This document shows, in pieces, positions 11,554 to 12,975 of a stretch of DNA of 64,000 nucleotides. Position 1 is the first letter of the stretch. The number at the start of each line of letters is the position of its first letter. The notes under the pieces are model-generated. The model was given only the letters and a program-made list of their open reading frames with translations, was not told where the DNA came from and did not search any database. Both the position numbers and the translations under genes were made by a program. This stretch comes from Acidobacteriota bacterium (GTDB lineage: Bacteria > Acidobacteriota > Blastocatellia > RBC074). Where the stretch lies: NCBI GenBank assembly GCA_016196035.1, contig JACPYM010000107.1:1-64000 (forward strand). The letters are read 5' to 3'.

Positions 11554-12975
11554 TCACTTCTGCCATTTCACTTCCAACACCGCGCGATCCCGCGTGCTGA
11601 AAAAACCGAAGATGTTCGTTTGTCTGCCGCCGAAAAAATCCGCGCCCAACCCCACGCTCCAATGATCGCCAAAGCTGCGCGTGAAGCGCGGACGAATCAG
11701 ATATTGCCGCTGATTCAAGCCCGTCAGCACAAACAACTCCGGTTTGAACTTTTCGTGGAAGAAGTTGGTGCGCACGAAAAACGACGCCAGATGGTTGTAG
11801 CGCGGAAAGAGCAGTCGTTGCTGGGGCGCGGAAACGAACGAAAAAAAGTATTGCCCGCTCAACCACACCCATTCACGCGGCGAATAATCAACGCCGACCA
11901 CGCTGGAAAATTGCCCGACCTTGCCGAAACCATCACGCAGCGGCTGGTCATTGACCGCGACCGCGCGGTTGCGATTCCAACCCGCTTCCAAGCGCAACAC
12001 CACCGGGCCAAAGTTGTTTGCGCCCGTCAGGCCGAACACTTCTTTGCGGTCGTAACGCGGTTTGAAAATGACCGTTGGCAAAGGCTCGCCAGGTTTCTGC
12101 TCAAAACCGCCGACGTAATTGGTCGGCACATCTTCCCAGCCGTAAAAGTAATTGGCTGTCCAGTCCCAGCTTTTGATTGCCCGACTGAACCGCGCGCCGA
12201 ATTGCGAGGAACGCAATTGATAGGCTGGCCGCGCACTCTTTTCCGCCCGTAGCGGCAATTGGGCGAGCGGCGAATCTTGCAAAGCCGCTTTGATCAAGCC
12301 CAGGCCGAAACTCTGGCCCGCGCCGAATTCGTCGCCTTCGACCGACAATCGGCCCGGCGCGAAGTAAGGCACCCAGAGCAATTGCAATGAGCCTTTTTCG
12401 ACCGGCACATCCGCACGCGCCAACCACAACGGACGGCGCGAATCCAGAAAGTCTTCCAGAATGAACTCGCGATAATCGAGCGGGTTGATGACATCCAGCA
12501 CACGCAAACCGTCAGCCTGTCCCCAGACGACTTGTTGCAAACCGAGCTTGAGATCAACCTTCCCGGCCTTGCCTTCGACAACGACTTGGCGCGGGTCGAG
12601 CCATAATTTGTTTGGATAGCCCAGCCGCTTGACCGGATCGTAATGCGCGTGCGTTTCCAACGTCAGCCGCCAGTCATCGCCGATTTTGTACACGCCTTTC
12701 GCGTCCAACTGCGTGCGCGACATTTGCAGTTGATGCGGCGCATTCAGCTTGAAGCCCGTGCGATTGCGGATGGTCAGTGACCAAATCCAGTTGGAAGGTT
12801 TGGGCGTTGGCTCAGGCGTCGGTGTGGGTTCTTGCGCAAAGGCTGGAAAAAGCAAAAAGCAAAAGGCAAAAGGCAAAAGGCAAAAGTGCGGAACTGTGTT
12901 GTTTAGAAAAGAAAGCGCCGCCCTTTTGATTTTTGCCTTTTGCCTTTTGCCTTTTGCCTTGAAAAGCATCCGCAT
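11554..12975 (-). CDS. DUF1302-type outer-membrane beta-barrel protein
   Basis: 473 residues. The start is the ATG at 12975, overlapping the stop of the upstream LolA-like gene as TGATG. The family is indicated by the VVWGQADGLRVLDVINPLDYREF segment (positions 12459-12527) and many amphipathic strands to the C-terminal aromatic end. The signal peptide is remarkable: its basic n-region (KGKRQKAK) and hydrophobic h-region (LLPFAFCFLLF) are encoded by inverted heptanucleotide arrays, with cleavage expected after FAQ or FPAFA. A Pro/Thr/Glu linker follows. Together with the LolA-like protein and ABC exporter it forms an envelope lipid or lipoprotein export cluster. Substrate unknown. Confidence 0.75.
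   Translation of the reverse strand: MRMLFKAKGKRQKAKIKRAALSFLNNTVPHFCLLPFAFCFLLFPAFAQEPTPTPEPTPKPSNWIWSLTIRNRTGFKLNAPHQLQMSRTQLDAKGVYKIGDDWRLTLETHAHYDPVKRLGYPNKLWLDPRQVVVEGKAGKVDLKLGLQQVVWGQADGLRVLDVINPLDYREFILEDFLDSRRPLWLARADVPVEKGSLQLLWVPYFAPGRLSVEGDEFGAGQSFGLGLIKAALQDSPLAQLPLRAEKSARPAYQLRSSQFGARFSRAIKSWDWTANYFYGWEDVPTNYVGGFEQKPGEPLPTVIFKPRYDRKEVFGLTGANNFGPVVLRLEAGWNRNRAVAVNDQPLRDGFGKVGQFSSVVGVDYSPREWVWLSGQYFFSFVSAPQQRLLFPRYNHLASFFVRTNFFHEKFKPELFVLTGLNQRQYLIRPRFTRSFGDHWSVGLGADFFGGRQTNIFGFFSTRDRAVLEVKWQK
12851..12960. repeat. Inverted pair of GGCAAAA heptamer arrays encoding a signal peptide
   Basis: 12851-12886 is a run of GGCAAAA-type heptamers; 12931-12960 is a run of the reverse complement TTTTGCC. 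On the minus strand, in the DUF1302-type gene, one arm encodes the basic heptapeptide GKRQKAK and the other the hydrophobic FCLLPFA. The pair could also form a hairpin in the mRNA just after the start codon. Confidence 0.9.

Follow-up and report, generated by a model that had tools for sequence, protein, structure and literature searches.

We analyzed a stretch of 64,000 nucleotides from an Acidobacteriota contig (hereafter the window), in which a gene for a DUF1302-family outer-membrane-type protein begins with an inverted pair of arrays of the heptanucleotide GGCAAAA. The array pair is very probably a copy of a dispersed GGCAAAA hairpin that has replaced the native n- and h-regions and has been kept in frame as a Sec/lipoprotein-type signal peptide. 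The source genome (G000) is a 9.6 Mb assembly, and the named orthologous contigs all belong to metagenome-assembled genomes (MAGs) of Acidobacteria. The features of the locus are as follows.

11554-12969, minus strand: gene for the DUF1302-family outer-membrane-type protein, with the hairpin as its predicted signal peptide (PF06980, E 1.1e-8; orthologues).
12835-12969, minus strand: predicted 45-residue Sec signal peptide; start ATG at 12969-12967, alternative ATG at 12975-12973, cleavage between AFA and QE by inspection.
12922-12960, minus strand: array arm, (CCTTTTG)5.6 on the plus strand (Tandem Repeats Finder, translation); (GGCAAAA)n on the gene strand, giving the basic n-region KGKRQKAKIKR.
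12887-12921, minus strand: loop between the arms, 18 nt shorter in the same-genus orthologue with the frame kept.
12847-12886, minus strand: array arm, (AAAAGGC)5.7 on the plus strand (Tandem Repeats Finder, translation); (TTTTGCC)n on the gene strand, giving the hydrophobic h-region FCLLPFAFCFLLF.

The original prediction had placed an inverted pair of a single heptamer, reading GKRQKAK and FCLLPFA, in a DUF1302-type gene, and had taken the arms for the n- and h-regions of almost a whole signal peptide. Both statements hold. Tandem Repeats Finder returned period 7, as in heptanucleotide short tandemly repeated repetitive (STRR-like) sequences, both peptides were present in frame, and the protein matched PF06980. 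Translation of the minus strand across the hairpin gives MRMLFKAKGKRQKAKIKRAALSFLNNTVPHFCLLPFAFCFLLFPAFA followed by QEPTP; from the ATG at 12969 it gives MLFKAKGKRQKAKIKRAALSFLNNTVPHFCLLPFAFCFLLFPAFA before the same QEPTP, with the arm read first forming the basic n-region and the second forming the hydrophobic core. The predicted peptide has the properties of a Sec signal (n-region charge of +8, 12-residue hydropathy (h12) of 2.63, cleavage between AFA and Q), and the same-genus orthologue (G003) keeps the ATG of 12969. Compared with each other, the G000 and G003 genes differ by an 18-base deletion in the loop and a 12-base deletion in the linker, and the frame is kept although the unit has seven bases; the two lengths are each divisible by three, suggesting that the reading frame is under selection. 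It had been allowed that the true start might lie downstream of the array. No in-frame ATG or GTG was found between the hydrophobic arm and the mature DUF1302 protein, where the only candidate is a TTG inside the arm, and a start at that codon would leave no basic residues.

A scan of the genome for GGCAAAA/TTTTGCC arrays at gene 5' ends had also been proposed, and it was productive. A whole-genome pattern search located GGCAAAA hairpins at 16 loci in G000, five of them signal peptides: those of the DUF1302 protein, a glyoxalase-fold protein (C2), an ActE-like cytochrome lipoprotein (C5), a solute-binding lipoprotein (C40), and an fn3 lipoprotein (C65). At most 4 of 306 other hairpins fall in this class (Fisher p = 1.7e-5, with the first count genome-wide, the second from a 1.6 Mb sample and the groups not strictly independent). 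For a wider view of placement, 65 GGCAAAA elements were picked by DNA pattern irrespective of genes, the frames crossing them were examined, and the tally was made by hand. Of these, 21 supply an exported-type protein with its N-terminus, in which a basic stretch is followed by a hydrophobic core and then by an AXA-like site or lipobox. The core is FCLLPFA-like in these, except for C51 in G004 and C81a in G008, in which a native core follows the basic arm. Lipoboxes at other hairpin signal peptides read LTAC, LSAAC, LSGC, and ALTGC, and the cargo in relatives includes TonB_C, VWA, PQQ propeller, cytochrome c, and HlyD proteins. The remaining elements (about two thirds of the 65) are intergenic, and none of the 65 interrupts a gene body. 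Several intergenic copies immediately precede ispD, murI, dnaG, and further genes of cytosolic proteins, which were named from the appearance of their N-termini. GGCAAAA hairpins precede the same cytosolic genes in different genera (L012 and L190, murI-like; L134 and L202, ispD-like), as conserved insertions or at hot spots.

Comparison of orthologues was used to follow the fate of the signal peptides. Beyond the closest genera, the signal peptides of the DUF1302 orthologues are ordinary, with a length of 22-24 residues in G001 and G002. In nearer genera the same site is occupied by hairpins of GGCAAAA (G000, G003), GCAGAGAC-type (G006, G010), or CGGAAAC-type (G005, G009) words, and the sister taxa G009 and G010 (support 100/99) carry different ones. 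The second gene is labelled ActE-like from a reading of its conserved N-terminus and a cytochrome c match rather than from a dedicated model. Its native signal reads MLKARLQKIGLAVCLTMTALGLSAC before RQDMHDNP in G007 and is similar in G001, G002, G005, and G006a; hairpin signals are built from GGCAAAA (G000, G009, G010), AGACAGA (G006b), and GACACAGA/GGGGACAA-type words (G006c). Among these orthologues the start codon and the lipobox are retained and the middle is exchanged. Hydrophobic cores reach h12 values of 2.35-3.17 when derived from hairpins vs 2.03-3.15 when native, and n-regions have 14-48 vs 4-18 residues. Based on these alignments, the predicted signal peptides of both genes, DUF1302 and ActE-like, have been overwritten several times.

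The same comparison changes one part of the original prediction, which had seen in the array the de novo birth of a signal peptide. Orthologues without the array have ordinary, unrelated signals and the proteins were already exported; thus an existing signal was replaced and no new export signal was born. Unrelated signals in orthologues had been named as grounds for rejecting the idea. They do occur in the array-less orthologues, and are read here as the native signals that the array replaced. A variant of replacement, differing only in selection, is neutral insertion at hot spots, in which elements would enter at random at gene starts and survive only in tolerant signal peptides; it has a little better than an even chance of being correct. 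Signal peptides are permissive and tolerate almost any basic-hydrophobic sequence, gene bodies are left uninterrupted, and the cargo proteins were exported beforehand; the repeated hits in DUF1302 and ActE, however, are many for neutral tolerance alone.

The hairpins belong to a dispersed family. Dozens of GGCAAAA hairpins were found across related genera, mostly 56-205 bp in size with arms of up to 40 nt. They are small and have terminal inverted repeats, as do miniature inverted-repeat transposable elements, and the purine arm comes first (R-then-Y) in every element with both arms. The array is present in 14 of 58 genomes of the class, including 8 of 11 of the family, and a stricter both-arms pattern was found in 3 of 199 genomes sampled across the phylum; the array pattern written backwards as a control gave 0 matches in G000 and, in the class, one match in one other genome. 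By eye, the loop flanks of the window copy resemble those of the genome copy L001 (ATCAAAAGG.CGGC.CTTTCTTT...TTCCGCA), which is consistent with copies of one element. An origin on the spot is unlikely, since the window array is one copy of a dispersed hairpin family with other copies in other signal peptides. Local slippage would dispense with a dispersed element: arrays would grow within existing signal peptides, whose core codons (CTT, TTT, GCC) are slippage-prone, and the inverted arm would arise by snap-back copying. Degenerate single-arm arrays in neighbouring signal peptides (13704-13739) fit this account, as does the proposal that heptamer slippage is common in some bacteria (PMC4679880), but the GGCAAAA unit, its polarity, and similar loop bases recur at many unrelated loci, intergenic ones included, and we regard slippage as improbable.

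At the locus itself, the best ungapped inverted repeat (12852-12957) has a 40-base arm with 36 complementary positions and a 26-base loop, making a hairpin of about 105 bases. Two-unit near-matches to the heptamer number 13 in the window vs 1.3 expected from shuffles. The predicted mRNA fold of the region is -85.9 kcal/mol (z = -8.75), and an Rfam search gave no match. Alternatively, the hairpin would act at the 5' end without being translated (mRNA stability, terminator, or repetitive extragenic palindromic (REP)-like role), with the true start downstream and the signal peptide an open-frame artefact. The stability of the fold would suit this reading, as would the intergenic two thirds, many of which stand a few bases before a cytosolic gene with its own ATG. 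It is nevertheless very unlikely: in the DUF1302, ActE, and solute-binding genes no ATG or GTG separates the hydrophobic arm from the lipobox or mature protein, the frame is kept between G000 and G003, and native orthologues have a signal peptide exactly there.

The coding properties of the heptamer offer a simple reason for this use. A seven-base unit passes through all three frames, and therefore encodes the same cyclic peptide in each of them. For GGCAAAA this peptide is GKRQKAK, for its complement FCLLPFA, with stop codons in neither in any frame. There are 2,340 cyclic heptamers. Both strands are free of stops in 1,180 of them, and only 4, GGCAAAA included, equal or exceed it both in basicity on one strand and in hydrophobicity on the other. 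Since the purine arm comes first and an inverted repeat is identical from both strands, either strand reads basic, then hydrophobic. Every open frame across GGCAAAA hairpins has a net charge of +4 to +8, and most have a 12-residue hydropathy of 2.0-2.7; in most other unit families of G000 there are stops, or one of the two properties is missing.

Under replacement by a dispersed element, hairpins with tandem GGCAAAA arms would settle mainly between genes and at gene starts. A copy in frame at a gene 5' end would read (GKRQKAK)n, loop, (FCLLPFA)n, i.e., a ready n-region and h-region. At genes of already exported proteins it would displace the native n- and h-regions but leave the start codon in place, together with the lipobox or cleavage site, and would then be retained as a working Sec or lipoprotein signal peptide. 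We infer arrival by transposition or template-switch copying. More tentatively, a selfish hairpin class may persist as a strand- and frame-independent signal-peptide cassette whose spread steadily rewrites the export signals of the clade, as one repeat word overwrites another at the same genes. Lying directly behind the start codon, the mRNA hairpin might also slow translation and so aid targeting. We consider this broader proposal rather doubtful.

Several points weigh against replacement by a dispersed element. The GCAGAGAC-type DUF1302 copies mainly extend the n-region, with a native h-region after it, and GGCAAAA in the ActE of G000 and of G009/G010 could represent one ancestral event. In-frame position alone proves nothing, since several GGCAAAA elements stand open and in frame ahead of cytosolic genes (ispD, dnaG) yet do not serve as signals. 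The TTG inside the second arm is a formally possible start, cleavage sites were assigned by eye, and the closely compared genomes are all MAGs. Gene context came from a home-made codon-score gene finder, which cut genes short at the array because array codons score as non-coding; placement was called from open-frame tests rather than from its gene calls. Export by the hairpin-derived peptides is a prediction from their sequences. Neither target-site duplications nor a mobilising enzyme was found, and none of the 20 Y1_Tnp loci examined is flanked by a GGCAAAA hairpin, the arrangement seen in REP sequences with a REP-associated tyrosine transposase (RAYT).

A RAYT was considered as the mobiliser. 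G000 has 14 Y1_Tnp matches. The candidate was unsupported: G005 has 10 Y1_Tnp matches but lacks a GGCAAAA array, and the hairpins are absent from the flanks of Y1_Tnp genes. The G009/G010 and G000/G003 alignments contained no clean empty site. In the window, a Y1_Tnp (REP-type transposase) match is located at 30195-30548, with a one-armed (TTGCCTG)5 array at 30844-30877, about 300 bases away.

The closest precedents are Rickettsia palindromic elements (RPEs) and Yersinia RU-2. RPEs are dispersed, measure about 100-150 bp, and occur both in intergenic sequence and, in frame, inside protein genes (Ogata et al., 2000; reviewed in PMC10969869, PMC2229807). GGCAAAA hairpins are likewise dispersed palindromes with both intergenic and in-frame copies; however, RPEs have a conserved non-tandem sequence and occur in many protein genes, whereas the GGCAAAA arms are tandem heptamers and the in-gene copies lie in signal peptides. 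Among the enterobacterial RU elements, RU-2/YPAL of Yersinia forms part of one predicted signal peptide (Delihas, 2007; PMC2759123). There, too, relatives have unrelated signal peptides, but essentially a single small, putatively exported protein is concerned, compared with about 21 GGCAAAA loci and repeated replacement in well-conserved exported families. The heptanucleotide tandem repeats of cyanobacteria and Beggiatoaceae (TAACTGA; PMC4679880) share the seven-base unit, dispersed arrays, and frequent proximity to start codons; they are direct repeats at mostly untranslated upstream sites, in contrast to the translated inverted pairs described here. REP sequences and REPINs with RAYTs (PMC3116915, PMC3733652) are also dispersed hairpins, and G000 has Y1_Tnp matches; the GGCAAAA arms differ in being tandem, and no such hairpin stands beside a Y1_Tnp gene. 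No account of such hairpins in Acidobacteria was found in the open-access literature. What is new here is that the arms are tandem heptamers, that a coding logic underlies their use, the scale on which they occur, and that different repeat words have repeatedly overwritten the same signal peptides. The hairpins provide a concrete, recurrent case in which a mobile-type repeat supplies a functional protein segment, with a predicted export function and a simple coding basis: basic residues come from a purine-rich arm and hydrophobic ones from its complement. Orthologue comparison makes signal-peptide turnover and the fate of protein-coding palindromes directly testable. Caution is also warranted with such N-termini in metagenome proteins, which can be true coding sequence and not start-site errors.

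Hairpins in general were surveyed in 1.6 Mb of sampled G000 stretches (L034-L113) with arms of at least 20 bases. The sample contains 311 (318 reported minus seven poly-N artefacts), about one per 5 kb; the shuffled control reported 9, mostly poly-N. Arms are strongly tandem in 62 of the reported hairpins, mostly with period 7. Inverted copying might leave the two arms coupled in register; of 47 hairpins, 23 matched better that way and 21 matched better at the best shifted register. G000 is unusually hairpin-rich, with many families, e.g., CGGTACCGCGCGCGTGAGCAAGCGG, TGTTCGACAAGCTGCCAGCTTGTCG, and GCCACAGAGGCACGGAGACACAGAG.

The gene upstream of DUF1302 contains a further array.

12975-13760, minus strand: LolA_like/DUF1329-type gene; its stop codon and the first ATG of the DUF1302 gene share bases.
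13704-13739, minus strand: degenerate single-arm heptamer array (TTGCCCT-like, 72% match), from which the LolA_like signal peptide takes its h-region (LPLALCLLSVALG).

The G003 orthologue has LLLAFCLWPFALLPALAQ, and the array may therefore be a decayed relic. Three other hairpins were observed in the window. A GGGATGA hairpin (18393-18474) lies in frame in a Ser/Thr kinase gene (17458-19941) just past the kinase domain, where it reads GMRDEGGGMKAGSRKLFSSLIPHPSSLL as a linker insertion. Tandem-armed hairpins are located at 24540-24632 (GGAATCA heptamer, pyrimidine arm first) and at 63006-63089 (nine-base unit ACGGAACAA, purine arm first).
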